Shown piece by piece: positions 1,956 to 32,582 of a stretch of 32,715 nucleotides of DNA (the first letter of the stretch is position 1; the number at the start of each line of letters is the position of its first letter). Below the pieces are notes generated by a model. That model was not told where the DNA came from. It made no database searches and worked only from the letters and a program-made list of their open reading frames with translations. The translations under genes and the position numbers were made by a program. Where the stretch lies: positions 1-32,715 of the forward strand of contig JALTLF010000232.1 in NCBI GenBank assembly GCA_027005735.1, written 5' to 3'. The stretch is from Chromatiales bacterium. Lineage in GTDB: Bacteria > Pseudomonadota > Gammaproteobacteria > CAMYNG01.

Positions 1956-3143
1956 ATGCATATATTCATCAATGCGCTCAATGCCCGCCTTGGTGGGGGG
2001 CAGACTTATATCAGCAACCTGCTCAAACATTTGCCGGAAACATCCTCAGTCAGGATCTCGATGTTGGCGTCTCCCTCTCAGGGGCTGAGTGGAATTCCAG
2101 AAGGTGTAAATATCATGAGGAGCGGAAAATGGCTACAAAGACCCGTGGTTAGGGCTATCTGGGAGAGACTGTTTCTTCCTGGGGTGCTGAGGCGGGAAAA
2201 GGCCGATGTCCTCTTTTGTCCCGGCGGGGTGGTTTTGACCAGTCCCCCCCGGGGTTGTCGTTTAGTGACCATGTTCCGCAACATGATCCCTTTTGATATC
2301 AAACAACGCAAACGGTATGCCTGGGGATACAAACGCATTCGGAACTGGTTGCTCGAGAGAATCATGGCGTCCAGCATGAGCAAGGCGGACCTGGTGATTT
2401 TTGTTTCCGACTACGCCAGGAATGTAATCGAGGATCATCCGAAGGTAACTGTAAAAAAGAGTGTTGTAATTCCACACGGCATCAGTGATCGATTTCTGGT
2501 GTCGGCCCGGATAGAAGAAACTCGAACGCTTACCCACGAAGGCGACTATCTTTTGTATGTTTCATCTGTAGATGTTTACAAGATGCAGATAGAGGTCATA
2601 AGGGCATTTTCCCGTCTTGAACCTGCCACGAGAGGGTTGACGCTGGTGCTGGCAGGGCCCGAGATCAACAGGGAATATGCCGCCAGAGTCAGAGCGGAAG
2701 TCAAACGCTTGGGCCTGGAAGAAGCCGTCAAGATGGTTGGCTCTATACCTTACGACGAGCTTCCATTCTGGTATCAGAATGCAAAAATTAATATTTTCGC
2801 CTCCGAGAGTGAAAATTGCCCAAATATCCTGCTTGAGATGATGGCAAGTGGTAAGCCGGTGGCATGCTCCAGTTATCCGCCGATGCCGGAGTTTGGGAGG
2901 GATGCTGTTATTTATTTCGATCCTGAGGCTCCTGATACATTGGCTAACGTGTTAAAAGAACTATTAGGGAACCGTAGCCTATGTGAAAAACTATCGTCGA
3001 GATCGGTGGAGATTGCCAAGGGTTATCAGTGGAGAGACGCTGCAAGTCAGACATGGGATGAAATCTATAGTTTGTTAGTAAATCATAAACAGTCGCCGGC
3101 TCTGGTCAGCGAAGACAGCAGGGGTGAGTCGAGTGCTGGCTGA
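1956..3143 (+). CDS. Glycosyltransferase family 4 (GT-B fold)
   Basis: A 395-aa GT-B glycosyltransferase. The N-terminal half has a glycine-rich acceptor-side loop (NARLGGGQTY, about residues 9-18). The C-terminal half carries the sugar-nucleotide site with the EX7E pattern of retaining GT4 enzymes, seen in SESENCPNILLEMMASGKP. No transmembrane helix is evident, so it should work at the cytoplasmic membrane face, adding a sugar to the undecaprenyl-linked repeat unit. It starts 2 bases after the asnB stop and is surely cotranscribed. Donor and acceptor cannot be read from the sequence. A 100-bp gap with a small hairpin (3168-3186) separates it from the next gene. Confidence 0.85.
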   Translation: MHIFINALNARLGGGQTYISNLLKHLPETSSVRISMLASPSQGLSGIPEGVNIMRSGKWLQRPVVRAIWERLFLPGVLRREKADVLFCPGGVVLTSPPRGCRLVTMFRNMIPFDIKQRKRYAWGYKRIRNWLLERIMASSMSKADLVIFVSDYARNVIEDHPKVTVKKSVVIPHGISDRFLVSARIEETRTLTHEGDYLLYVSSVDVYKMQIEVIRAFSRLEPATRGLTLVLAGPEINREYAARVRAEVKRLGLEEAVKMVGSIPYDELPFWYQNAKINIFASESENCPNILLEMMASGKPVACSSYPPMPEFGRDAVIYFDPEAPDTLANVLKELLGNRSLCEKLSSRSVEIAKGYQWRDAASQTWDEIYSLLVNHKQSPALVSEDSRGESSAG

Positions 3144-3243: not shown

Positions 3244-5661
3244 GTGGGAATATTCAGTGGGTTATTCGAATTGATGCAAAGACTTATTTTTCCTGCTGCC
3301 ATTTCACTTAATATGTTTTCAACAACCGCTTTGCTGGTTGTTCTTGGGATATTTTGGAAGCCGGAAATGGCAGCTGAGGTGGGGGTTGTGCATGGGGCGA
3401 CTTTGGCTACGTTTCTCGTATTTTCTGCTAACGCACGGAATCTGATCCTGGGTAGCAACTCTGATGTTCTCCTGCAGCACTTATTCCTTTTCCGCGCAAT
3501 TTTGTTACTACCGCTTTCTGTTGTAGCTTACTTGTTGAGCAAGGGGATAATCGATAGTTTTGGCGTTATTACGGTTTTTCTTATTCTTCGTCGATGCATG
3601 GAATGGCTTGCGGAATTGCATATCACAAAGATGGAGAAAGAGGAGAATATCAAGTTTGCATATATCTTTGTCTTTATTCAGTGCGCCTCCTTTATATTGC
3701 TCGTGATTTCTCTTTGGGGGGGCGATGAGAAGCTGTTTTACATTGCTCTCACTGTTTGGGCCGTTTCTCCCATAGTTACCGGCGCAAGGTTTGTGTTGCG
3801 CATGCTTGTGACAAAGCCAGGGAAACGAGATGTGTTTGTAAGTCTGGCGCCGCATATTGGATCAACTTGGATTATTGGAGTTTCTACATATCTGTTTCGC
3901 GTAGTAATTATTCTCGTGGCCGGTGAACGCGTTGGGGGACTTTTGTTCTCGGCTTATGCTATAGGAGGAATGCTTAATTCGATTTATACCTACGCGCTTG
4001 GCCCGAGTCTTGCTTTACATAATGAGAAGGCCGGCGTGGAACGTGGGGCTGGATTTCGAAATCACGTCGTCGCTGGACTCTGTATTTTGGGAGCAGCAAT
4101 ACTGGCCTTTATTGAGGTGTCGGAAAATCTCGGTGATACGCTTTTATTCAGGGCTATAGGGTTTTCTCTAATTGGTGGAGGGATAATGATCCTTGCGCAG
4201 CACAGAAGGATCATGATCCTGCAGATCGAGAAAAGTTCGGTATTTGTTCAGGATGTTTTTGCCAATATACTCATTGTGGCGACGGTTCCTTTTGTATTTT
4301 ATCTGTTTGGCCAGGATGTCCTTTCTGGACTGTTTCTCTGGAGTGCCATATTGACCTATGGAGTTTATGTGTTTCCCGGTATTGTTAAACTTCGCCAAGA
4401 AGTAAACCGAACGGAAAAAGACAAACGGCATGTGTTTCCACGTATTAGCCGATCAGTGATACAGGCCTGGGTAATATTTTTTCTGTCGTTTCCCCTGTTT
4501 TTTCAATTGGATGGAGGGATTTTTTCATCGCCCGACCTGTTTTTTGATTCCAGAAGGTTGCTAACCAGAGTTCCATTGCCGGTGTCTGTTATTGCATGTT
4601 TTTCGGGAATAGCGTTGTTTGTTTCTTATAAAAGAGCAAACCTTTCCGCTAGTATTTTGTTTTTTCTATTTATGTCTATGGCTATTTCAGTGTTTGTTGT
4701 GTCTGCGGGTAGTGATGAAGATAAATCCTCAAAACTGATATTTATGATGCAGTTCGTGCTGCCAGTCTTCGCATTGCTTCTGGGGCAGATTTATGCGCAG
4801 CCAGAAAACTACAGGTTGCGCTATGAATCTGTATTTTTATATGTTCTTATGTTTATCCTTCCGGCCGAGGTATTAGCAACAATCTTTCAAAATACCCCAA
4901 TTCTCACGCCATACCTTTATCTCTTTAGCATATATCAGCATGTACAATATGTTCCGATGATTCTTGTGGGAATGTATACAATCGCAGCCGTAACACTGTC
5001 ACGATATAGCGGAATGCGTCTGCTGCTCCTAGTGCTCGCTCCCCTGCTTGGGGCGTATGTGGCATCATCTCTGTCAATCCTCGCATTGGTCATGACTGCA
5101 TTGGGTGTATTGCTTATTGTCTATGCCGATCTTAAAAGAGGGTCGCGAGGTTTTTCGATATTCGTTTGTATGTTGGTTATCGTGGGCATGGGCTGGTACT
5201 GGCTTGTTCATCCGCAAATCCTTAATGGCTTTGCTCAAACGGGTTTCACGTCTCATCTGATGATTAATGGTAATACGGCGAATGATTATTTAACCGGCAT
5301 TAATATCTATTTGAAAGGCATCACTGAAAGCCCTGTTGCGTTGATCTTTGGGCATGGTCAGCGCATGGAAGAGCGTTTATTGCCGGGGGTCCATAACTAT
5401 TACCTGGATCTTATCTATAATTATGGATTGATAGCTGCGGTGCCATTTCTATATTTGGTGGGATATACAGGCCGTCGTCTGGTGCGCACATGGAAGACGG
5501 GGATGCTCACATCCGACAGGCTTTGTCTGGCGACGATAGTGCTGTTCTACGTGTTGGTCGCAAACTCGTTTAGCGTTTCACTCAGACAGCCATATCCAGG
5601 GATTGTTGAATTTTTTCTATGGGGGATTCTGTTGAACGAGTTGTCCACGTCCTCGTCATGA
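3244..5661 (+). CDS. Putative fused flippase (Wzx-like) and O-antigen polymerase/ligase (Wzy_C/WaaL-like) membrane protein
   Basis: An 805-aa polytopic protein with about 24 hydrophobic segments. Residues 1-380 hold about 12 segments laid out like a polysaccharide flippase of the Wzx/PST type. Residues 381-403 form a charged hydrophilic linker. Residues 404-800 hold about 12 more, with a large loop at about 655-717 followed by HNYYLDLIYNYG (717-728). That HN-x-x-L pattern before a glycine is typical of the Wzy_C region of O-antigen polymerases and WaaL ligases. Wzx and Wzy/WaaL are normally separate genes, so a single reading frame covering both is unusual. The GTG start at 3244 has GGAG touching it, so ATG 3274 is an alternative. 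The gene is much more AT-rich than the rest of the window. The flippase assignment rests on topology and context, the C-terminal one also on a motif. Confidence 0.65.
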   Translation: MGIFSGLFELMQRLIFPAAISLNMFSTTALLVVLGIFWKPEMAAEVGVVHGATLATFLVFSANARNLILGSNSDVLLQHLFLFRAILLLPLSVVAYLLSKGIIDSFGVITVFLILRRCMEWLAELHITKMEKEENIKFAYIFVFIQCASFILLVISLWGGDEKLFYIALTVWAVSPIVTGARFVLRMLVTKPGKRDVFVSLAPHIGSTWIIGVSTYLFRVVIILVAGERVGGLLFSAYAIGGMLNSIYTYALGPSLALHNEKAGVERGAGFRNHVVAGLCILGAAILAFIEVSENLGDTLLFRAIGFSLIGGGIMILAQHRRIMILQIEKSSVFVQDVFANILIVATVPFVFYLFGQDVLSGLFLWSAILTYGVYVFPGIVKLRQEVNRTEKDKRHVFPRISRSVIQAWVIFFLSFPLFFQLDGGIFSSPDLFFDSRRLLTRVPLPVSVIACFSGIALFVSYKRANLSASILFFLFMSMAISVFVVSAGSDEDKSSKLIFMMQFVLPVFALLLGQIYAQPENYRLRYESVFLYVLMFILPAEVLATIFQNTPILTPYLYLFSIYQHVQYVPMILVGMYTIAAVTLSRYSGMRLLLLVLAPLLGAYVASSLSILALVMTALGVLLIVYADLKRGSRGFSIFVCMLVIVGMGWYWLVHPQILNGFAQTGFTSHLMINGNTANDYLTGINIYLKGITESPVALIFGHGQRMEERLLPGVHNYYLDLIYNYGLIAAVPFLYLVGYTGRRLVRTWKTGMLTSDRLCLATIVLFYVLVANSFSVSLRQPYPGIVEFFLWGILLNELSTSSS

Positions 5662-7133
5662 AGACTAAAACGAAAAGCGGAACTTACTGTATGATTTCCC
5701 GGGATGTTAGGCTGATTTCGCCAAGGTGCACACGAGCGGCGTTGTATGTGGTAGCACTGTTTATTGCTACGCTAACGGCTGCTGCACTTGTGAGGTATCC
5801 CGGAAAAGGGTATGTCTATCTGGTTTTTACGGCGATCTCCGCGTCTTTTTTATACTTCGGGTTCCGAAAAAGAGCAATCTTCTTTGATGCGTTTATAGGG
5901 GGGTTTTTGTGGCTTGGATTCTGGCTGAAGTTGACAGTCACAGTTGTGTTTGCGAATGGTCAGTTTCGCCACCCAGTTGGTGCATTTGATGGTTCTCCGG
6001 AGGCATACGATAAGGCCCTCCTCGTGGCAACCACCGGCATGTTGGGGTTTCTCGCGGCCAGCCTAATCAGAGAAAAATTTATCTTCAATTACCCGAATGA
6101 AATTGACAGGACTCCGTTTCGGGGCTGGTTGACGCTGTACAAGCATAATAGAGCAATAGTTTTATGGGGTTTTGTTGCGTTGGTGATGGTCGTGGCGGTC
6201 ACGAATGCCTATTTTGGTATTTACCAGAGGGGGGCGGTCCCATCTACGGTTTTGCCGTATGGGCTTAGTGGCATATATAAGTGGCTGTTGTTGTTCGGTT
6301 TGGCGACATTCTCATCGGTAATTCTATACTGCGAGTTTATTCAGCAACGAAAGGCGACCTACACTGCGACTTTTGTAAGTTTGCTTGAAACCTTCTTAAG
6401 TAATGTGTCGCTTTTGAGTCGTGGGATGATCCTAAATGCAGGTGCGCTACTTTATGGTATCTATAGGTTCTGCTCAATTCTTTCGTTAAGAATTAATAAG
6501 CGCTATGTGCTTATTACTATCGCAACGTTCAGCGCGCTTTTTGTCGTCTCGGTGATATTGGTAAATTTATTGAGGCTCCTGATATATAACGATCCATCTC
6601 CCTATGGACACCTTGCCAAAGAAGCGTGGTCATCGACAATGGCGCTTTTTGTCGGTCGGTGGGTCGGCATTGAAGGCGTGATGGCAGTGAGCAGTTATTC
6701 GGAGTTGGGCATGGATTTGTGGGGTGATGCGTGGGGGGAAAGGTTTTCGTACGATAGCCTGAGTTTTTATGATTCCACAATCATAGAATCTCCTTACGTT
6801 AATTCGGATCTATCAAAGACCCATTTTGTTTCATTGCCGGGAGTCATCGCGTTTTCGTTTTATTCTGGTTCATTTTTGATTCTATTTTTGACTGTGTTTG
6901 TCTTTGGTCTTTTCGCGGCCGTTCTTGAGAGGTTTGTTTTTAAGCTCGGAGGGGAAAATATTATTTTATGTTCCCTTTTGGGGCAGGTTATCGCATACCG
7001 ATATGCGCATTTTGGCTATGTTCCACAGCAAAGTTATCTGCTGTTTGGTTCGATTATTCTCAATGTGATTTTGTTTTATGTTGCCAACCGGGCTTTATCG
7101 TTATGGTATGTTAAAAGAGGCATCTTACAGTAG
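5658..7133 (+). CDS. Probable O-antigen/oligosaccharide repeat-unit polymerase (Wzy-like)
   Basis: A polytopic protein of 491 aa from the ATG at 5658, which overlaps the previous stop as ATGA; the in-frame ATG at 5619 is less likely because it would overlap 43 bases. About 11 hydrophobic segments are visible. A conserved-looking SRGMILN lies in the middle, and a large periplasmic-type loop (GRWVGIEGVMAVSSY and following) comes before the last helices. This layout fits the diverse Wzy-like family of oligosaccharide repeat-unit polymerases, which join undecaprenyl-linked units in the periplasm. Sequence similarity in this family is weak, so the call rests on topology and position. If correct, the locus has two polymerase/ligase-like modules in adjacent genes. 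Base composition is AT-rich like its upstream neighbour, suggesting joint acquisition. Confidence 0.55.
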   Translation: MKTKTKSGTYCMISRDVRLISPRCTRAALYVVALFIATLTAAALVRYPGKGYVYLVFTAISASFLYFGFRKRAIFFDAFIGGFLWLGFWLKLTVTVVFANGQFRHPVGAFDGSPEAYDKALLVATTGMLGFLAASLIREKFIFNYPNEIDRTPFRGWLTLYKHNRAIVLWGFVALVMVVAVTNAYFGIYQRGAVPSTVLPYGLSGIYKWLLLFGLATFSSVILYCEFIQQRKATYTATFVSLLETFLSNVSLLSRGMILNAGALLYGIYRFCSILSLRINKRYVLITIATFSALFVVSVILVNLLRLLIYNDPSPYGHLAKEAWSSTMALFVGRWVGIEGVMAVSSYSELGMDLWGDAWGERFSYDSLSFYDSTIIESPYVNSDLSKTHFVSLPGVIAFSFYSGSFLILFLTVFVFGLFAAVLERFVFKLGGENIILCSLLGQVIAYRYAHFGYVPQQSYLLFGSIILNVILFYVANRALSLWYVKRGILQ

Positions 7134-8398
7134 TGGCGAAAGGTCGAATTGTTGCGGGCGGCAAGAAGAATATATTGGTTGTTTCTCAGTATTTATGGCC
7201 GGAAAACTTTCGTATAAATGACCTCGTTCAGGAGCTGGATTCCCGTGGTCACGCTGTCACGGTGTTAACAGGGATCCCCAACTATCCAGGTGGGAGATGG
7301 TTCGAGGGGTATGGTCTCTCCTCCTGCGGTCGGGAGACCTGGAATAATGTCAATGTAGTTCGCGTGCCGATGATTCGCCGCATGTCAGGACGGGGCTGGC
7401 AACTGGTGCTGAATTACCTGAGTTATGCGGTGGCGGCAAGCGTGCTTGGACCACTCTTATGCCGAGGGCACTACGACGTAGTATTCGTCTATGAACCTTC
7501 TCCTTTCACGGTGGGGATCCCGGCATTGGTAATGCGGTGGCTAAAACGCGCACCGATGTTGTTCTGGGTGCAGGATCTGTGGCCGGAGAGTCTGAGCGCG
7601 ACAGGTGCGGTAAGGTCGAAAATGGCGCTATCGCTCGTGGCCAAGATGGTGCGGGCGATCTATCGGCGTTGTGATCGGGTACTGGTACAGTCCGAGGGAT
7701 TTATCGCGCCGGCGATCGCGGCCGGTGCCGATCCCGCAAGTGTCCGCTATTTTCCAAACTGGGCGGAGGATTTCTATGCGCCCGTTGAAGTGGCGGAAGG
7801 GGCCGCAGAACGCGCAGAGCTCCCCGATGGTTTTCGGCTCGTATTCGGGGGCAACATGGGCGCCGCGCAATCACTGGAGACTATCCTCGAGGCAGCCGAA
7901 ATTCTGAAGGATGAGCAGGATATCAAATGGGTTATGATAGGTGATGGCAGAAGAAAAGCCTGGATGGAGGAGGAAGCTCGGAAACGCGGCCTGAGTAACG
8001 TGCAATTCTTCGGTCGCAAGCCGGTGGAACAGATGCCACGGTACTTTGCGCTTGCGGACGTATTGCTGGCCACCCTGAGACCCGATCCTGTGTTCGCGCA
8101 GACGGTACCCAGCAAGGTACAGTCTTACCTGGCCTGTGGCCGGCCGGTGGTCGCGGCACTGGACGGCGAGGGCGCACGCCTCGTCAGGGAGGCCGGAGCG
8201 GGTCTGGCGGTAGCCGCCGGTGATGCCACCGCGCTCGCGGAGGCCGTCCGCCACCTGTACCAGATGGAACCCCACCAGCGCGCTGAGATGGGCAGGGCAG
8301 GCCGGGCTTACTACGAAACTCATTTCCTGCGTAAACGTCTGGTGGACCGACTGGAAGGCTGGATGCGGGAACTGGTAGAACCAGGCGAGTCCCGATAA
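7133..8398 (+). CDS. GT4 glycosyltransferase, WbuB-like (amino-deoxy-L-sugar transferase)
   Basis: A 421-aa GT-B enzyme resembling WbuB/WbjE-type transferases. Visible marks are the N-terminal VVSQYLWPENFRINDL, FWVQDLWPES near residue 145, GGNMGAAQSLETILEA in the C-terminal domain, and VPSKVQSYLACGRPVV where classical GT4 enzymes have an EX7E motif. That substitution is usual in WbuB relatives. Known relatives add N-acetyl-L-fucosamine or similar sugars, which fits the UDP-amino-L-sugar genes directly downstream. The GTG start overlaps the upstream TAG by one base (TAGTG), so translation is probably coupled. The gene spans the step from AT-rich to GC-rich composition: the first third is mixed, the end is GC-rich. 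Confidence 0.82.
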   Translation: MAKGRIVAGGKKNILVVSQYLWPENFRINDLVQELDSRGHAVTVLTGIPNYPGGRWFEGYGLSSCGRETWNNVNVVRVPMIRRMSGRGWQLVLNYLSYAVAASVLGPLLCRGHYDVVFVYEPSPFTVGIPALVMRWLKRAPMLFWVQDLWPESLSATGAVRSKMALSLVAKMVRAIYRRCDRVLVQSEGFIAPAIAAGADPASVRYFPNWAEDFYAPVEVAEGAAERAELPDGFRLVFGGNMGAAQSLETILEAAEILKDEQDIKWVMIGDGRRKAWMEEEARKRGLSNVQFFGRKPVEQMPRYFALADVLLATLRPDPVFAQTVPSKVQSYLACGRPVVAALDGEGARLVREAGAGLAVAAGDATALAEAVRHLYQMEPHQRAEMGRAGRAYYETHFLRKRLVDRLEGWMRELVEPGESR

Positions 8399-8435: not shown

Positions 8436-9320
8436 ATGAAAATACTCGTTCTCGGTGCATCCGGCATGCTGGGGAATGCCATGTTCCGGTTTTTGGCAGA
8501 GCACGGGCAGTTCGACGTGACCGGAACACTGCGTAGCACCGCAATGCGCCGCTATCTTCCGGAAAGCCTGCATGATCGACTGAAGACGGGTATCGATGTA
8601 TTGTCTCAGGATCATCTGATGTCGTTGTTCGATGACGTGCGCCCGGATGTCGTGATAAATTGTATCGGGCTGGTGAAACAGCTTGGCAGCGCCTCGGATC
8701 CCCTTAGTGCCCTGCCGGTCAATTCGCTCCTTCCTCATCGACTGGATCGGCTGTGTGGCCTGGCCGGAGCGCGGTTGGTACATTTCAGCACCGATTGCGT
8801 GTTCACCGGAGACAGGGGAATGTACAAGGAGGAAGATACCGCCGATGCGAGGGATTTGTATGGCCTGTCCAAGTACCTTGGCGAGGTAAGGGATTCCTCC
8901 CATGCCATCACGCTGCGCACGTCCATCATCGGGCACGAGCTGGGAAGAAAGCTCTCCTTGATTGGCTGGTTTCTGTCGCAGGAGGGTAAGGTGCCGGGAT
9001 ACTCGCAGGCGATATTCTCGGGCCTGCCGACGGTGGAGATGGCACGGATCGTAATGGAGTATGTGCTGCCGAAACCGGAGCTGAGTGGTCTCTACCATGT
9101 CTCCGCCGCGGCCATTGACAAGAAATCCCTTCTTGAACTGGTTGCCGAGGTTTACGGAATGAACGTCGAGATTTTCGAGGACGTTTCCGTGCGAATCGAT
9201 CGTTCGCTGGATTCAACGCAATTCCGGAAGGCAACAGGTTACGTGCCACCGACATGGCCCGAGCTGGTAGAGTCCATGAAATCATATCACGAGCAGTGGA
9301 ACATGGGAGACGAGGTATAA
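8436..9320 (+). CDS. RmlD-like SDR reductase, WbvR-type, for a UDP-2-acetamido-2,6-dideoxy-L-hexose
   Basis: A 294-aa short-chain dehydrogenase of the RmlD family. The NAD(P) site GASGMLG is at residues 7-13 and the catalytic YGLSK (YxxxK) follows DLYGLSKYLGE. It sits directly before WbjB/FnlA-like and WbjD/FnlC-like genes, so it should reduce the 4-keto intermediate made by the former. The corresponding enzyme of the UDP-L-FucNAc pathway (WbjC, FnlB, Cap5F) is about 370 aa with a C-terminal cupin-like domain. This protein stops at 294 aa and lacks it. The WbvR enzyme of Vibrio cholerae O37, which leads to UDP-L-quinovosamine, is short and RmlD-like in the same way. The product is therefore more likely L-RhaNAc then L-QuiNAc, but this is inference. 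AGGA precedes the ATG at a suitable distance. Confidence 0.8.
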   Translation: MKILVLGASGMLGNAMFRFLAEHGQFDVTGTLRSTAMRRYLPESLHDRLKTGIDVLSQDHLMSLFDDVRPDVVINCIGLVKQLGSASDPLSALPVNSLLPHRLDRLCGLAGARLVHFSTDCVFTGDRGMYKEEDTADARDLYGLSKYLGEVRDSSHAITLRTSIIGHELGRKLSLIGWFLSQEGKVPGYSQAIFSGLPTVEMARIVMEYVLPKPELSGLYHVSAAAIDKKSLLELVAEVYGMNVEIFEDVSVRIDRSLDSTQFRKATGYVPPTWPELVESMKSYHEQWNMGDEV

Positions 9321-9321
9321 G

Positions 9322-10332
9322 GTGTTCGACGACAGGACTTTGATGATAACAGGCGGGACAGGCTCCTTCGGGCGCACCGTCCTGCAGCGCTTCCTGAAAA
9401 CGGATGTCAGGGAGATCCGCATCTTCAGCCGTGACGAAAAGAAGCAGGAAGAAATGCGCATCGCCCTGAATAACGACAAGGTCAAGTTCTACATTGGCGA
9501 TGTGCGCGACTACGACAGCCTGTTGCAGGCCATGGTGGGGGTGGACTATGTCTTTCATGCAGCGGCCCTGAAGCAGGTTCCCTCCTGTGAGTTCTATCCC
9601 ATGGAGGCGGTGCGGACCAATATCGTTGGAACCGACAACATGCTCAGCGCAGCCATCGCCACGGGGGTGAAGCGCGTGGTGGTGCTGAGTACCGACAAGG
9701 CGGTGTATCCCATCAATGCCATGGGTATGTCCAAGGCCATGGCGGAAAAGATCATGGTGGCGCGCTCGCGTACCGTGGACGGAGACGGTCCCGTGATGTG
9801 CGCCACACGCTACGGCAATGTCATGGCCTCGCGGGGCTCGGTGATCCCCCTGTTCGTCGATCAGATCAGGGCCGGCGGGCCGCTGACGGTGACCGATCCC
9901 GATATGACCCGTTTTCTCATGTCGCTGGAGGATTCGGTGGATCTCGTTTTACATGCCTTCGAGCACGCCACGCCGGGCGACATCTTTGTGCAGAAGGCGC
10001 CCGCCTCGACCATTGCCGATCTGGTCGCTGCCATGCAGCAGGTGTTCGGCACGAACCTGCCGGTGAAGACTATCGGTACCCGCCATGGGGAAAAACTCTA
10101 TGAATCGCTGGTTTCCCGCGAGGAGATGGCACGCGCCGAGGACATGGGTCGCTACTTCCGTATTCCGGCGGATACGCGGGATCTCAACTACAACAAGTAC
10201 TTCGTCGAGGGCGAGGAGAACATCTCGCATCTCGAAGATTACACCTCCCACAACACCCAACGGCTGGACGTTGATGGCGTGCGGAAGGTGCTGCTGGAGT
10301 TGGACTATATAAAAGAGGCGCTTAATGCCTAA
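9322..10332 (+). CDS. wbjB: UDP-GlcNAc 4,6-dehydratase/5-epimerase (WbjB/WbvB/FnlA/Cap5E family)
   Basis: A 336-aa extended SDR that converts UDP-GlcNAc to the 4-keto-6-deoxy L-sugar nucleotide, the first step to UDP-L-FucNAc or UDP-L-QuiNAc. The nucleotide-binding loop TGGTGSFG lies at about residues 10-17, with STDKAVYPINAMGMSKAMAEK around 130-150. In this family the usual catalytic Tyr of YxxxK is replaced by Met, and MGMSK here fits. CATRYGNVMASRGSVIP is also characteristic. The GTG start is one base after the preceding stop, with a GGAGACGAGG-like ribosome site inside the end of that gene. Its stop overlaps the next start by 8 bases. Enzyme class is secure; the final sugar depends on the reductase and epimerase. 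Confidence 0.9.
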   Translation: MFDDRTLMITGGTGSFGRTVLQRFLKTDVREIRIFSRDEKKQEEMRIALNNDKVKFYIGDVRDYDSLLQAMVGVDYVFHAAALKQVPSCEFYPMEAVRTNIVGTDNMLSAAIATGVKRVVVLSTDKAVYPINAMGMSKAMAEKIMVARSRTVDGDGPVMCATRYGNVMASRGSVIPLFVDQIRAGGPLTVTDPDMTRFLMSLEDSVDLVLHAFEHATPGDIFVQKAPASTIADLVAAMQQVFGTNLPVKTIGTRHGEKLYESLVSREEMARAEDMGRYFRIPADTRDLNYNKYFVEGEENISHLEDYTSHNTQRLDVDGVRKVLLELDYIKEALNA

Positions 10333-11443
10333 GGTCATGACCATCGTGGGCACGCGTCCCGAGATCATCAAGATGAGCCGCGTGATCGCCACCTTCGACG
10401 CCCATGTCAATCACGTGCTGGTGCATACCGGGCAGAATCACGACTATGAACTCAACGAGGTCTTCTTCGAGGACCTCGAGATCCGCAAGCCTGATCATTT
10501 CCTCGGCGTTGCCGGTGGCACGACGGCAGAGGTCATCGCAGCTGTCATCGAGCGGTCGGATGCGGTGTTCGAAAAGGAACGCCCGGATGCCCTGATGCTC
10601 TATGGCGATACCAACAGTTGCCTGGCGGTGATCGCGGCCAAGCGGCGCAAGATCCCGGTGTTTCACATGGAGGCGGGCAATCGCTGTTTCGACCAGCGTG
10701 TCCCGGAAGAACTCAACCGCAAGATCGTCGATCATCTCAGCGATATCAACTTGGTGTTGACCGAGCACGCCCGTCGCTATCTGCTGGCCGAAGGGATCCG
10801 CCCCGAGACCATCATCAAGACCGGCTCGCACATGCGCGAGGTGCTGGATTACTATCGGCCAAAGATCGAAGCATCCGGCGTGCTCGCGCGCGAGGGACTC
10901 GAGGCCGGCAAGTATTTCCTTGTCAGCGCCCACCGCGAAGAGAACGTCGATGACGAGGACAATCTGCGCGATCTGCTCGATGCCCTGGTGGGACTGGCGG
11001 AAAGCCATGCCTTTCCCGTCATGGTCTCCACCCATCCCCGCACGCGCAAGCGTCTCGATGCCATGGAGGGTGCGGCCACCCATCCGCTGGTGAAGTTCGT
11101 CAAGCCTTACGGGTTCACCGATTACGTTGCGTTGATGCAGAGTGCGGCCTGCGTGCTCTCGGACAGCGGTACCATCACCGAGGAGGCCGCCTTGCTCTCC
11201 ATCCCGGCGGTCACCATTCGCAACACGCATGAACGCCCGGAAGGTAACGATGCCGGCGTGCTCATCATGTGCGGCCTGCGCCGGGAAGCCGTGCTGGATG
11301 CAGTGCGTGTCGTCATGGCTGGTTCTCCCGGCCCGGTTGGTGTCGTGGACGACTACGCTGCCGAAGTGGTGTCGGAAAAGGTTCTGCGCACGGTGCTGGG
11401 TTACACCGACTACGTCAACCGCACGGTCTGGCACAAGACCTGA
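10325..11443 (+). CDS. wbjD: UDP-sugar 2-epimerase (WbjD/WbvD/FnlC/Cap5G family)
   Basis: A 372-aa member of the non-hydrolysing UDP-GlcNAc 2-epimerase family. It shows GTRPEIIKMS at the N terminus, HTGQNHDYE near residue 38, HMEAGNRCFDQRVPEE in the centre and SDSGTITEEA before the C-terminal end. In the three-enzyme pathway this class performs the last C2 epimerisation: L-talo to L-FucNAc, or L-RhaNAc to L-QuiNAc. The ATG overlaps the previous gene by 8 bases and is preceded by AGAGG, so translation is coupled. General WecB-type UDP-GlcNAc 2-epimerases are related, but the EAGNRCFDQRVPEE form and the context point to the WbjD group. Confidence 0.9.
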   Translation: MPKVMTIVGTRPEIIKMSRVIATFDAHVNHVLVHTGQNHDYELNEVFFEDLEIRKPDHFLGVAGGTTAEVIAAVIERSDAVFEKERPDALMLYGDTNSCLAVIAAKRRKIPVFHMEAGNRCFDQRVPEELNRKIVDHLSDINLVLTEHARRYLLAEGIRPETIIKTGSHMREVLDYYRPKIEASGVLAREGLEAGKYFLVSAHREENVDDEDNLRDLLDALVGLAESHAFPVMVSTHPRTRKRLDAMEGAATHPLVKFVKPYGFTDYVALMQSAACVLSDSGTITEEAALLSIPAVTIRNTHERPEGNDAGVLIMCGLRREAVLDAVRVVMAGSPGPVGVVDDYAAEVVSEKVLRTVLGYTDYVNRTVWHKT

Positions 11444-11456
11444 GCGGGAGACACGC

Positions 11457-12413
11457 GTGCGGATCCTGGTTACAGGCGGGAGCGGTTTTGTCGGCGGCCA
11501 TCTGCTGGCGCAGCTGCAGGCGCAGGGTCACGAACTCCACGTTGCCACGCGGCGCGAGGTGTTGCTCCCGGGCGGCGTTACCGCCGTCAGGGTCGGCGAT
11601 ATCGGCCCCGACACGGACTGGAGCGGCGCGCTCGACGGGATCGACGCGGTAGTGCATCTTGCCGCGCGCGTACACGTGATGCGCGACTCGGCCGCCGATC
11701 CCCTTGCCCTCTACCGCCACACCAACGTGGAAGGCACCCTGCGGCTGGCGCGCCAGGCGGCGAGCGCCGGCGTGCGGCGGCTGGTCTATCTCAGCTCCAT
11801 CAAGGTCAACGGCGAGGCCACCACGCCGGGCCGGCCGTTTACCTCCACCGACGCGCCCGCCCCGGGGGATCCCTACGGGATCTCCAAGTACGAGGCCGAG
11901 CAGGGGCTGTTGACGATCGCCGCCGAGACGGATCTCGAAGTGGCCATCATTCGTCCCCCGTTGATCTACGGCCCCGGCGTCAGGGCCAACTTCCTTCGCC
12001 TCATGCGTCTTCTCCAGCGCCAGCTGCCGTTGCCCTTTGGCCGTATCCGCAACCGGCGCAGTCTGCTGGCGGTGGGCAATCTTGTCGATCTTGTGACGTG
12101 CTGCCTCACGCATCCCGGCGCGCGCAACCGTATCTTTCTCGCCGCCGATGGGGAGAGCCTCTCCACCCCCGAGTTGCTGCGGCGCCTCGCCGCCGCGCTG
12201 GGGGTACGCGCGCGGCTGGTGCCGGTGCCCCATGCCCTTGTCGATGGCGGCCTGCGCCTGCTGGGCAGGGGTGCGCTGGCGCAGCGCCTGTGCGGATCGC
12301 TGGAGGTCGATATCCGGGACACCTGCCAGCGGCTGGACTGGTCGCCGCCGGTGTCGGTGGACGCGGGCCTGAAGGCGGCGGCGGATCACTATCTGCGGGA
12401 AGGAGCGCGGTGA
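11457..12413 (+). CDS. NAD-dependent epimerase/reductase, WbpV-like (UDP-D-QuiNAc synthesis)
   Basis: A 318-aa extended SDR from the GTG at 11457, with GGGAG seven bases upstream; a longer frame reaching back into the previous gene is only read-through. It has TGGSGFVG at residues 6-13, SSIKVNGE near 117 and the catalytic DPYGISKYE (YxxxK). RPPLIYGPGVRANF and NRRSLLAV follow. These marks resemble WbpV of Pseudomonas and WreQ of Rhizobium. Those reduce UDP-4-keto-6-deoxy-GlcNAc to UDP-D-QuiNAc and sit next to the initiating transferase, as here. They need a WbpM-type 4,6-dehydratase, which is not in this window. A UDP-GlcNAc 4-epimerase role remains possible. Its end overlaps the next gene (GTGA). 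Confidence 0.78.
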   Translation: MRILVTGGSGFVGGHLLAQLQAQGHELHVATRREVLLPGGVTAVRVGDIGPDTDWSGALDGIDAVVHLAARVHVMRDSAADPLALYRHTNVEGTLRLARQAASAGVRRLVYLSSIKVNGEATTPGRPFTSTDAPAPGDPYGISKYEAEQGLLTIAAETDLEVAIIRPPLIYGPGVRANFLRLMRLLQRQLPLPFGRIRNRRSLLAVGNLVDLVTCCLTHPGARNRIFLAADGESLSTPELLRRLAAALGVRARLVPVPHALVDGGLRLLGRGALAQRLCGSLEVDIRDTCQRLDWSPPVSVDAGLKAAADHYLREGAR

Positions 12414-13426
12414 TCGCGGCCACCCTGCTGATCGCCGTTGCCCTGGCCAGTTTTCTCCTCGCCGGGCTGGTGCGGCGCTATGCCCTGGCGCGGGGCGCGC
12501 TGGACCGTCCCAACGAACGCAGTTCCCACGCCATCCCCACGCCGCGTGGCGGCGGTCTGGCTTTTGTCACCACCTTCCTCGTCGGGCTGGGTGTGGCGGC
12601 AGTCCTCTTTCCACTGGAGCGGAGCCTTGTGCTCGCGCTATGCGTTTCCGGCCTGCTGGTGGGTTTTACGGGCATGCGGGACGACTTCCACGGGCTTGGC
12701 GTGGGGGCGCGCCTCCTGGCGCAGTTTACCGCCGCCGTGGCCGCGTTCTGGGTGCTCTCGGGCGGGGAGCCCGCCAGCCTCTTTGGTACATCCGCGGGCG
12801 CGGCATGGCTGTTTGTCGCCGCAGGGGTATTCCTGCTCGTCTGGCTGGTGAACCTCTACAACTTCATGGACGGCATCGATGGCATCGCCGCCATCGAGGC
12901 CATCACGGTGGGTCTCGGCATGACGCTGGTGTACCTGCTCGACCCACGGACGGGGGAAGCGTGGCTGATTCCGGCCCTGCTGGCTGCCGGTGTGTCGGGT
13001 TTTCTGCCGTGGAACTTCCCCGGCGCACGACTGTTCATGGGGGATGTCGGCAGCGGTTTTCTCGGTATGTCGCTCGGCATCATGGCGCTGCAGGGCTGGA
13101 AGCTCGATGTCTCCCTGCTCTGGGCCTGGCTGATCCTGCTGGGGGTGTTCATCGTCGATGCCAGCCTGACCCTTTTTCGCCGGTTACTGGCCGGCGAAAA
13201 CGTGTTTCGTGCCCACCGCGGCCATGCTTACCAGGTCGCCGCGCGGCGTTATGGAGCGCATGCCCCGGTGTCGCTGGCGGTGGGGGCCATCAACCTGCTG
13301 TGGCTCTTGCCCCTTGCCATCTGGGTGGCGCGCGGCGGACTGGCCGGGCCGGTGGGCCTCCTCATTGCCTGGACGCCGCTGGTGGCGCTGGCAGTCTGTT
13401 TTCGCGCGGACCGGGTACAGGCCTGA
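12410..13426 (+). CDS. wbpL: Initiating glycosyltransferase, WbpL/WecA family (undecaprenyl-phosphate sugar-1-phosphate transferase)
   Basis: A 338-aa integral membrane enzyme from GTG 12410, overlapping the previous stop as GTGA with GGAAGGAG just upstream. It transfers an acylamino-sugar phosphate from a UDP-sugar to undecaprenyl phosphate, starting O-unit assembly at the cytoplasmic face. About 10-11 hydrophobic helices are visible. Conserved family motifs are present: RGGG near the N terminus, the acidic pair in GMRDDFHGLG, NLYNFMDGIDGIA, NFPGARLFMGDVGSGF and AHRGHAYQ. Pairing with a WbpV-like reductase suggests QuiNAc (or FucNAc/GlcNAc) as the first sugar, as in Pseudomonas B-band loci. 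It ends the polysaccharide operon; no intrinsic terminator is evident before the tRNA-Val promoter. Confidence 0.88.
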   Translation: MIAATLLIAVALASFLLAGLVRRYALARGALDRPNERSSHAIPTPRGGGLAFVTTFLVGLGVAAVLFPLERSLVLALCVSGLLVGFTGMRDDFHGLGVGARLLAQFTAAVAAFWVLSGGEPASLFGTSAGAAWLFVAAGVFLLVWLVNLYNFMDGIDGIAAIEAITVGLGMTLVYLLDPRTGEAWLIPALLAAGVSGFLPWNFPGARLFMGDVGSGFLGMSLGIMALQGWKLDVSLLWAWLILLGVFIVDASLTLFRRLLAGENVFRAHRGHAYQVAARRYGAHAPVSLAVGAINLLWLLPLAIWVARGGLAGPVGLLIAWTPLVALAVCFRADRVQA

Positions 13427-21833: not shown

Positions 21834-21943
21834 CTCCGTGATTTCGGTTCCCGCCTACGTCCCTGTAGGTCAGGCCAGCCGGGCATCCCTGCCCGGCGTT
21901 CCTCGGGCTGCGAAAGTCCACTGGACTTTCGGTCCCTCGTCAC

Positions 21944-21960
21944 CCTCTCGCCCCGACCAA
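21944..21960 (+). repeat. Copy of the tRNA-Pro 3' end (1)
   Basis: These 17 bases are identical to the end of the tRNA-Pro gene (21816-21832), including the CCA and one base beyond. The rest of the tRNA is absent, so it is not a gene. It may be an att-like remnant or a repeat seeded by the tRNA end. Confidence 0.75.
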
Positions 21961-22093
21961 CAAAACCAGTAACGAGTTGCGAGGGTCGAGGATTTTGATC
22001 CCCGCCCCCTGTCCCCCGCCCTGAGGGCGGGGGGACCCGGATACCTGTATCCAGGCAGCCAGAAACGCCACTGGACTTTCGGTCCCTCGTCAC

Positions 22094-22110
22094 CCTCTCG
22101 CCCCGACCAA
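22094..22110 (+). repeat. Copy of the tRNA-Pro 3' end (2)
   Basis: Identical 17-base match to the tRNA-Pro 3' end, in the second tandem unit after the tRNA. Confidence 0.75.
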
Positions 22111-22342
22111 CAAAACCAGTAACGAGTTGCAAGGGTCGAGGATTTTAATCCCCGTCCCCTCTCCCCCGCCCTGAGGGCGGGGGTACGGCTGTTTCGGGAT
22201 CCGTGCCGTCAATCCCGCGCAGCTGGCTAAATGTTGGTTCCCTCTCTCTTCGAAACCTCGATGCCCTGCCGGGATGGGAAGGTATAACGGGGCCTGGTAA
22301 AACGGTTCCCTCTCCCTTTGGGAGAGGGACAGGGTGAGGGGA

Positions 22343-22900
22343 TCAAAATCCTCGAACCTGTGACTCCGGCACCCGCAGGGTGAGGGTATTGCCGCGCTGG
22401 GTGAATTCCAGGTGCTTGAGGAAGCTCATGCCGAGCAGGACTTCGTCGCCCTCGACGTTGGGATTGATGGAGGCGTCGATGTCGCGCAGTTCGATGGCGC
22501 CGAGGCGGATGCTGTCGATGCGCGTGCGATAACCGGAGGCAGTGCCGTTGGCGGTCTGGAAGAAGACCACCGGGCCCTTTTCCAGCCCCAGGCGGGTGGC
22601 AAGGGCCAGCGGCACCGAGACGTCGCTGGCGCCGGTGTCGAGCAGGAAGGTGACGTCCTTGCCGTTGATGCTGCCGGTGGCCACGTAATGGCCGTAGCGG
22701 TTGCGCTGCAATACGACCTCGCGCGCGCCGTCGGCGGCGAGCTGGCTCGCCACGCGCGGGTTGGGGTTGTACTGGCGCTCGAGGATGTTGCCGAACAGCA
22801 GGGTCAGCAGGCCAAGGCCGAGGATCCACATGGCGTAGTACATGCCCGCGCCCATGCGGCGGTTGGCCTTGTCATCCTCCGGGTTTTGATCGTTCATCAT
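22343..22900 (-). CDS. Membrane-anchored retropepsin-like aspartic protease (clan AA)
   Basis: A 185-aa protein from ATG 22900, chosen because CGGAG lies about 8 bases upstream; a longer frame to 22927 lacks this. An N-terminal membrane helix (about residues 20-38) anchors it. A single retropepsin-type domain follows with the catalytic FLLDTGASDV (Asp88) and LLGMSFL near 155. Such proteins are expected to act as homodimers, each supplying one Asp, on the periplasmic side. They belong to a family common in proteobacteria (TIGR02281-like). The substrate is unknown. The last residues (RGF) and the stop lie inside the neighbouring repeat block, so its 3' end was probably rebuilt when the repeat inserted. 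Confidence 0.85.
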   Translation of the reverse strand: MMNDQNPEDDKANRRMGAGMYYAMWILGLGLLTLLFGNILERQYNPNPRVASQLAADGAREVVLQRNRYGHYVATGSINGKDVTFLLDTGASDVSVPLALATRLGLEKGPVVFFQTANGTASGYRTRIDSIRLGAIELRDIDASINPNVEGDEVLLGMSFLKHLEFTQRGNTLTLRVPESQVRGF

Positions 22901-23153
22901 GGTGTTTCTCCGATCTCCTGCCGGCATCCTCCCATACTTCCCTTCGGCCCGGCAACGGCATCCTGCGACTGTGACGGGCCTGTCATTTTGCCTGTGACCG
23001 ACGTCGGGTTTCCGACGCCGGTGGCGATATGCGGTTTAAGCCGCTGATTTGCAAGGCCCGCGGGATGGCGGTGAAATTTTCCTTAACTCATTGAAAAACA
23101 AGACGCTAATTAGCCTGAGACTTCAAGACGGATGAACGGAGAAGGACAGGCCA
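22901..23153. other. Divergent intergenic region between the retropepsin-like and PagP-like genes
   Basis: About 250 bases with no gene. A small hairpin CGTCGG-GTTT-CCGACG is at 23002-23017. The AT-richer part around 23080-23115 probably holds the promoter of the downstream + strand gene, but no box pair is convincing. Confidence 0.35.
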
Positions 23154-23651
23154 ATGGGTGGACGACATCTCACAGGGATCCTGGTGGCAATGCTCCTGCT
23201 GGGTGCCGTGCCGGCATGGGGCTCGGAGCAGTTGCATCTCATTGTCAGCGGCAGGACCTACCATTTCGAGGACCGCAACTTCAACGAGTCCAACTGGGGC
23301 CTGGGCCTGGAATACCAGTTCGCGCGTCGCGAGCAATGGATCCCCTTCATGACCGCCACGGCCTTTCTCGACAGCAACAAGCAGTGGTCGAAGTACGTCG
23401 GCGGCGGCGGCCGTTACCGCTTTGAACTGGGCGAGGAGGGCGTCTTTACCTGGTTTGACGTGGGCGTCATCGGTTTTTTCATGACCCGCAAGGACTATCG
23501 CGACAACGAGCCCTTCGTGGGGGTGTTGCCCTTCGTCTCCGCGGGCAACGACTTCATGTCGGTGAACGCCACCTACATTCCGCGCGTCACGCCCAAGTCC
23601 GTGCCGCTGGTGTACGTGCAGGTGATGTTCCGCCTGGCGGAGTTCGACTGA
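23154..23651 (+). CDS. PagP-like outer-membrane beta-barrel (possible lipid A acyltransferase)
   Basis: A 165-aa protein with a clear signal peptide (about 1-24, cleavage after AWG-S). The mature part is about 141 aa, close to PagP in size. By-eye comparison with E. coli PagP aligns its catalytic Asp-Ser (FKDSWNKW) with FLDSNKQW (Asp73, Ser74). The catalytic His may match His28 with a 2-residue gap. LPFVSAG...NATYIP near 125-143 matches PagP LPLASVG...MTYIP. PagP moves palmitate from phospholipid to lipid A in the outer membrane. The alternating hydrophobic pattern suits a small barrel. Similarity is distant and activity is inferred. Upstream GGAGAAGGAC gives a good ribosome site. The gene lies between two direct-repeat blocks. 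Confidence 0.6.
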   Translation: MGGRHLTGILVAMLLLGAVPAWGSEQLHLIVSGRTYHFEDRNFNESNWGLGLEYQFARREQWIPFMTATAFLDSNKQWSKYVGGGGRYRFELGEEGVFTWFDVGVIGFFMTRKDYRDNEPFVGVLPFVSAGNDFMSVNATYIPRVTPKSVPLVYVQVMFRLAEFD

Positions 23652-24028
23652 CGGATCGGCATCACGGCGTTCGGCCCGGCGGGCAGTCAGCCGGGAATGT
23701 TTCCAAAACAGTAGCGAGTTGCGAGTGGTGAGGGCTAAGGATCTGATCCCCGCCCCCTGTCCCCCGCCCTGAGGGCGGGGGGACCCAGATACCTGTATCC
23801 AGGCAGCCAGAAACGCCGCTGGACTTTCGGTTCCTCGTCACCCTCTCGCCCCGACCAACAAAATCAGTAACGAGTTGCAAGGGCCGAGGATTTGATCCCC
23901 GCCCTGAGGGCGGGGGTACGGCTGTTTCGGGATCCGTGCCGTCAGTCCCGCGCAGTTGGCTAAATGTCGGTTCCCTCTCCCTTTGGGAGAGGGTCAGGGT
24001 GAGGGGATCAGATCCTCGCTCCTCACCT
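23652..24028. repeat. Repeat-rich intergenic region with direct-repeat block 2
   Basis: Bases 23706-24018 repeat 21968-22354 in the same orientation. They include the 33-base spacer with one mismatch (23783-23815), the GGGCGGGGG hairpin, the tRNA-Pro tail, and the end TCCCTTTGGGAGAGGG...GATCCTCG. Block 1 carries about 60 extra bases between two GGTTCCCTCTC copies, consistent with a deletion in block 2. No gene is present. Confidence 0.8.
23842..23858 (+). repeat. Copy of the tRNA-Pro 3' end (3)
   Basis: Identical 17-base match to the tRNA-Pro 3' end, about 2 kb from the tRNA and inside direct-repeat block 2. Confidence 0.75.
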
Positions 24029-32185: not shown

Positions 32186-32582
32186 GAGCAGGGGCGGGGG
32201 GCGAGGGGTAGGATCCGATCCTCAGCCCTCGCCACTCGCACCTTGTGTCTTTTCTGGTGGGGATCAAAATTTTCGAGCTACAGAAGTAATCAATGGAGAA
32301 CGCCAGCATCTGATCTCCTCTCCCTGTCCCTCCCCCTGCGGGGGAGGGAACCGTTTTATCAGGCCCGGTATATCTCCTTATCCCCGCAGGGGTAGAGGAG
32401 ACGGTTGTTTCGGGATTCGTCCATGAATCCTTGCCTCGGTGGATTTTTCACCCCGACCCTGTATCTGTAACACGGTGCCGGCATAACCGTCCCCCCGCCC
32501 TCAGGGCGGGGGACAGGGGACGGGGATCAGATCCTGCCCCTCGTCCCTCGACCCTCGAAACTGAAATCCGGAGCAAGGATTT
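32186..32582. repeat. Repeat-rich intergenic region after lolD (inverted relative of the tRNA-Pro repeats)
   Basis: It contains hairpins CCCTCCCC-C-TGCG-GGGGAGGG (32328-32348) and CCCCCCGCCCTCAGGGCGGGGG (32491-32512). The segment GGGAACCGTTTTATCAGGCCC... near 32346 matches the reverse complement of about 22240-22325 (GGGCCTGGTAAAACGGTTCCC). The blocks are therefore one dispersed family in both orientations. The GC hairpins could also end transcription of lolD and of the convergent gene. No credible gene is present. Confidence 0.7.

Follow-up and report, generated by a model that had tools for sequence, protein, structure and literature searches.

We find that positions 3244–5661 on the forward strand of the window, the whole 32,715-nucleotide stretch of DNA analysed here, encode one real two-module membrane protein and not an assembly join. 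The architecture points to a natural fusion of a Wzx-like flippase (residues ~11–388) with a glycan transferase of the Wzy_C/WaaL superfamily (residues ~403–805), serving an L-FucNAc-containing O-antigen-type polysaccharide. The reading that we favour, somewhat more probable in our judgement than all its competitors together, is that this protein would both flip and polymerise the O-unit.

The frame runs uninterrupted for 805 codons and yields an 805-amino-acid fusion protein. Its candidate starts are GTG at 3244 and an in-frame ATG at 3274, with homology beginning at about residue 9–16. A sequence-only reading had proposed two 12-segment membrane modules joined by a charged linker, and AlphaFold2 agrees: the model, built on a 28-sequence alignment (mean pLDDT 84.9, pTM 0.88), has 12 long helices in residues 15–390 and about 12 in residues 403–801. 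Between them lies a K/R-rich linker (residues 389–402; positions 4408–4449, forward strand) with low pLDDT at residues 393–399. It is predicted to be cytoplasmic, and its basic character fits the expectation for a cytoplasmic connector.

A search for homologues with the same two-module architecture returned about 30 proteins (31–39% identity), with the full-length layout in a single uninterrupted frame. In unrelated genomes, single frames of 790–840 aa align with residues 9–805, linker included, so that the frame is believable without read mapping. The only circumstance that could favour an error of sequencing or assembly having merged two adjacent genes at the linker is the window's origin in a 241-contig draft genome. 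Against this stand about 28 independent assemblies, isolates among them, with a continuous frame through the linker, and a tree of the halves that fits one old fusion. We thus rejected an artefact at the linker, which the family as a whole refutes and which we consider vanishingly improbable; the uninterrupted frame of the earlier reading is borne out.

The homologues are found in Pseudomonas, Burkholderiales, Methylophilaceae, Deltaproteobacteria, Verrucomicrobia, Planctomycetes and Elusimicrobia, and two genomes from the same class as the window carry full-length matches at 38% and 35% identity. Querying GTDB genomes with the alignment yielded 31 loci, about 28 of them with one continuous frame, mostly of 790–840 aa, whereas a single-sequence scan of genome contigs gave no match. 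In samples of the phylum and the class (399 and 369 genomes) the frequency of the fusion was about 1%, and no free-standing N-module occurred in either. Close relatives of the window's own genome lack the fusion gene, which makes the locus variable or exchanged and not a clade marker. A search of plasmids detected no relative.

Several loci show variations on this layout. An Elusimicrobiales locus (L030:9914–13540) encodes a 1208-aa triple fusion of flippase-like, Wzy_C-like and C-terminal GT4 glycosyltransferase domains. Pseudomonas mosselii has fusion genes in tandem (L024:8704–11174 and L024:12557–15232); a frameshift splits one of the pair into 670 + 168 aa (L024), whereas the other is intact at 891 aa (L028). 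At L005:1330–1692 (genome G366), a short remnant of the fusion's C-terminal end is flanked by a glycosyltransferase gene and a WbuB-like one and represents a decayed version of this cassette.

The distance matrices of the N- and C-halves correlate closely (Mantel r 0.81; permutation maximum 0.36), indicating that both halves have been inherited together. Mean identity is 43% in the N-half against 39% in the C-half, with 28 and 20 invariant columns respectively. Free-standing C-modules occur at L032 and as additional 428–434-aa proteins at L021 and L034. In a FastTree tree of C-modules they nest within the fusions, although the placement of L021 and L034 is weakly supported, and they thus seem to have lost the N-module secondarily.

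The evidence is strong that the N-module (residues 11–388; positions 3274–4407, forward strand) has a 12-helix Wzx-like flippase fold of the MOP superfamily, and translocation is, with moderate confidence, its probable activity. The MOP fold comprises 12–14 transmembrane segments in two 6-helix bundles. When the fusion model was compared with the PDB by Foldseek, the best match was inward-facing WzxE (9g9n; probability 1.00, TM score 0.66 by target length), followed by MATE and MurJ transporters with probabilities of ~1, as expected from the earlier suggestion that the first half is flippase-like. The E-values of the Foldseek matches to the fusion are modest (0.014–0.3, with 0.014 and 0.16 among them), and the output carries no query-half coverage; the MOP matches were assigned to the N-half, and those to WaaL to the C-half, via profile comparisons. 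The N-half scored 28.6 against a MOP profile, compared with 20.4 ± 3.0 (maximum 26.8) for block-shuffled controls, and gave no signal against a WaaL-type profile (13.4). Global alignment placed the module co-linearly with the entire WzxE.

Neither the Polysacc_synt group of Pfam (PF01943/PF13440) nor NCBIfam matched the N-half of the window protein or of any of the 28 family members, and we therefore term the module Wzx-like by fold and not a Pfam-defined member. Searching the PDB with the fusion protein by phmmer and hmmsearch returned nothing, even at E 10. At the residue level, Arg219 (positions 3898–3900, forward strand) is invariant in 28/28 sequences and aligns with Arg239 of WzxE, which forms a periplasmic arginine pair with R44 (PMC11706664). 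Within the cationic-lumen set of WzxE (R44, R239 and D262), R44 and D262 find no equivalent in our alignment. The invariant charged residues of the N-module are R65, R84, R116, E120, E124, E131, R219, R322 and D337, many of them in predicted helices. With 28 invariant columns, many of them charged, the N-half does not look like a relic.

The other flippases of fusion-carrying genomes bear on this assignment. In the window's own genome (draft, 241 contigs, 98.7% complete), the single other non-MurJ PST flippase lies inside an unrelated XrtA-type exopolysaccharide cluster. This XrtA/PEP-CTERM-type cluster (L040; G000:C12:8000–27000) contains its own flippase, a chain-length determinant, a tyrosine kinase and a ligase-like protein. 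Seven of 26 fusion-carrying genomes have no PST flippase beyond MurJ-like matches, where partial coverage together with frame length is the basis of the MurJ-like label. Among the loci examined, two (L008 and L029) encode, apart from the fusion, nothing with at least seven predicted TM segments within 15–20 kb, and at L010 the only further such proteins are WbpL- and WaaL-like. At least eight loci encode a canonical Wzx in the same cluster (L007, L009, L012, L015, L019, L024, L026 and L031), and the N-module is thus not always the sole flippase; at these loci either two products are made or the module has a narrower or regulatory role. The contig begins at an asnB-like gene, and a wzx further upstream could therefore sit beyond the window.

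Such clusters raise the alternative that the N-module is a flippase-derived scaffold that docks on or gates a separate Wzx, leaving only the C-module catalytic. The unconserved R44 and D262 of WzxE would agree with this, as would the free-standing C-modules of L021, L034 and L032, whose nesting inside the fusion tree indicates that the N-half can be lost. However, the N-half is the more conserved of the two and retains many charged residues, and several genomes offer no other candidate PST flippase. We regard a mere scaffold as unlikely and retain the N-module as the putative flippase.

For the C-module (residues 403–805; positions 4450–5658, forward strand), a 12-helix fold of the Wzy_C/WaaL superfamily is likewise strongly supported, and a role in glycan transfer is, at moderate confidence, its probable function. 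The earlier reading had described the second half as Wzy_C/WaaL-like with a large loop, and three lines of evidence now agree with it. Foldseek matched the fusion model to the O-antigen ligase WaaL (7tpg, probability 1.00). The C-half profile matched WaaL-type proteins at 93.7%, nearer to these than to WzyE/WbbH profiles, and scored 62.6 against the WaaL profile compared with 25.1 ± 6.8 for block-shuffled controls. Pfam Wzy_C, finally, was reached by 3/28 homologues in a direct scan (best 3.5e-8). Fusion frames in seven genomes match Wzy_C weakly, below the cut-off; the C-half of the window protein itself is unmatched by PF04932 (Wzy_C) and by NCBIfam.

In the AlphaFold2 model a large loop (residues 656–718; positions 5209–5397, forward strand) separates TM9 from TM10 in the second module. 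By parity, each 12-helix module has both ends in the cytoplasm, which puts this loop in the periplasm. It ends in ..PGVHNYYLD, with HN at 717–718. The HN-x-x-L...G motif, at first taken as typical, is indeed present in the window protein, but its histidine is not universal in the family: 4/28 members lack it, with L at L015, L020 and L027 and Q at L021. The loop usually carries an ER..W motif in this family; the window protein has neither its Arg nor its Trp, and the Arg is also lost at L033. Further downstream, a K/S-V-x-x-R-Q-P-Y-P-G signature (residues 777–786; positions 5572–5601, forward strand) contains R781, P783 and G786, all invariant in 28/28 sequences. Given the absence of ER..W in the window protein and of the HN histidine in four homologues, polymerisation is a less secure assignment than flipping.

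The Wzy_C family includes polymerases as well as ligases. A Wzy_C protein adjoining heptosyltransferase genes in the window's own genome is a good WaaL candidate, and on this ground we favour a Wzy role over a WaaL role for the C-module and rate a WaaL-only role lower.

A second membrane protein has to be considered alongside the fusion. Directly downstream lies a gene for a multi-pass protein of ~480 aa (positions 5658–7133, forward strand), whose likely ATG at 5658 shares bases with the fusion's TGA stop codon (ATGA), as is also the case at L007 and L033. Family, fold (PDB and viral) and phage searches gave this protein no identity, phmmer and hmmsearch against the PDB returned nothing, and among the top 50 Foldseek matches none exceeded probability 0.15. 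One weak relative, annotated as hypothetical, is encoded on a Rhizobium plasmid. A 20-member alignment of the family (A3) is highly conserved, with 43–51% identity to the window member and the motifs SRGM, DRWVGxEG, HFxSLPG and RYxxFGYVPxQS. The gene occurs in 17/27 homologous loci (about 60%), usually as the next gene, and distances among its copies correlate with those among the fusions (r 0.78 for the N-half, 0.55 for the C-half). At L034:4383–9922 and L021:5972–8781 a free-standing C-module gene adjoins a ~480-aa gene while a complete fusion is present in the same cluster, which suggests that the two form a unit. We consider the ~480-aa family a candidate new Wzy-type polymerase or partner.

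If this neighbour were the true Wzy, the N-module would flip the O-unit and the WaaL-like C-module would ligate, cap or decorate the chain. The frequent adjacency and occasional ATGA overlap of the two genes, their correlated distances, the nearness of the C-half to WaaL-type profiles and the second ~480-aa gene beside a free-standing C-module at L034 all speak for such a division of labour. Yet ten loci keep the fusion without the ~480-aa gene, and this family has no recognised relationship to Wzy. Moreover, separate Wzy_C proteins able to serve as WaaL occur in the window's own genome and in most of the others, and Wzy_C membership fits a polymerase as readily as a ligase. This division of labour therefore seems doubtful to us, if less so than the scaffold, and we continue with the C-module as the probable polymerase.

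The genetic context connects the fusion to L-FucNAc. In the window, an asparagine-synthase-like amidotransferase gene (asnB-like; 88–1953; Pfam PF00733, NCBIfam) and a GT4 glycosyltransferase gene directly upstream of the fusion (1956–3143; Pfam PF00534, 1.4e-23) are followed, beyond the ~480-aa gene, by a WbuB/WcaI-type glycosyltransferase, a probable L-FucNAc transferase (7133–8398; NF007640, 9.4e-51). Next come FnlB-like (RmlD-like reductase; 8436–9320; NCBIfam), FnlA (UDP-GlcNAc 4,6-dehydratase/5-epimerase; 9322–10332; TIGR04130, 2.5e-168, under the model's own 730-bit cut-off) and a FnlC-like 2-epimerase assigned from gene order (10325–11443). An NAD-dependent sugar epimerase (11440–12413) and a WbpL-like initiating sugar-phosphate transferase (12400–13426), both with approximate starts, complete the cassette. 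All these genes are on the forward strand, and conservation of the cassette supports the assignments from WbuB onwards. Among the 27 loci with useful flanks, 26 contain fnl genes, L022 alone being without any, and most also hold WbuB, the NAD-dependent epimerase and WbpL. The GC content is 42–47% over the fusion and its partner versus about 64% in the housekeeping genes that follow, a drop typical of exchanged glycan genes. Dispersed GC-rich repeats lie between housekeeping genes at 21846–24010 and 32311–32535; their families of 157, 87 and 43 nt are up to 95–98% identical, and some copies are inverted.

From this architecture, its conservation and the cassette, which the data establish, we infer four catalytic steps. 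WbpL would initiate the L-FucNAc-containing polysaccharide, and WbuB together with further transferases would lengthen it. The N-module would then flip the repeat unit, on its undecaprenyl-PP carrier, into the periplasmic leaflet, where it would be released beside the C-module, whose large loop is predicted on that same face. The C-module would transfer the growing chain onto incoming units in the manner of Wzy, perhaps alone in some clusters and here probably with the ~480-aa partner. A separate WaaL would finally attach the finished chain. Coupling of flipping with polymerisation or ligation in one polypeptide, as first envisaged from the letters alone, is thus a plausible prediction. We see an even chance that these proteins form an undescribed bifunctional Wzx-Wzy class that flips and polymerises L-FucNAc O-units, takes the place of distinct wzx and wzy genes in certain clusters and is GT4-fused in the 1208-aa protein of L030.

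To our knowledge, it is largely unsettled whether Wzx, Wzy, Wzz and WaaL act as a complex that hands O-units from flippase to polymerase. If our interpretation is correct, one protein does a step of surface-glycan assembly normally split between two, and a natural covalent flippase-polymerase would keep the two partners at a strict 1:1 ratio and lend itself to cleavage, module exchange and structure determination, making substrate hand-off directly testable. An N-half that escapes both Pfam and NCBIfam could also explain clusters annotated without wzx.

We know of no Wzx protein that is not a separate polypeptide. A review of Wzy polymerases (PMC12004945) and the WzxE structure paper (PMC11706664) both handle Wzx and Wzy as separate proteins, and full-text searches of open-access papers turned up no account of Wzx fused to Wzy or to WaaL. 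The two-module arrangement of known parts is real and conserved; it is apparently undescribed, and its novelty, judged on open-access papers, is provisional.

Compared with WzxE and other Wzx proteins of the MOP superfamily (PST family), the N-module shares the 12-helix fold, aligns co-linearly and has the invariant R219 at the position of WzxE R239. It differs in escaping the Pfam Polysacc_synt and NCBIfam models, in showing no aligned conservation of R44 and D262 and in being fused to a second enzyme. With WaaL/Wzy_C proteins (PF04932) the C-module has in common 12 helices, a large TM9–TM10 loop in the periplasm and, in the window protein and most homologues, the HN motif. However, it sits behind a flippase and carries signatures of its own, YQ[HN]xQYV and KVxxRQPYxG; some members of the fusion family lack the HN histidine, and the window protein is without ER..W. 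At the level of the gene cluster, the fusion is surrounded by the same sugar-nucleotide and transferase genes as O-antigen clusters with FnlABC, WbuB and WbpL, such as the P. aeruginosa O11 type. Those clusters presumably have separate wzx and wzy genes, whereas here the two modules are joined in one frame.
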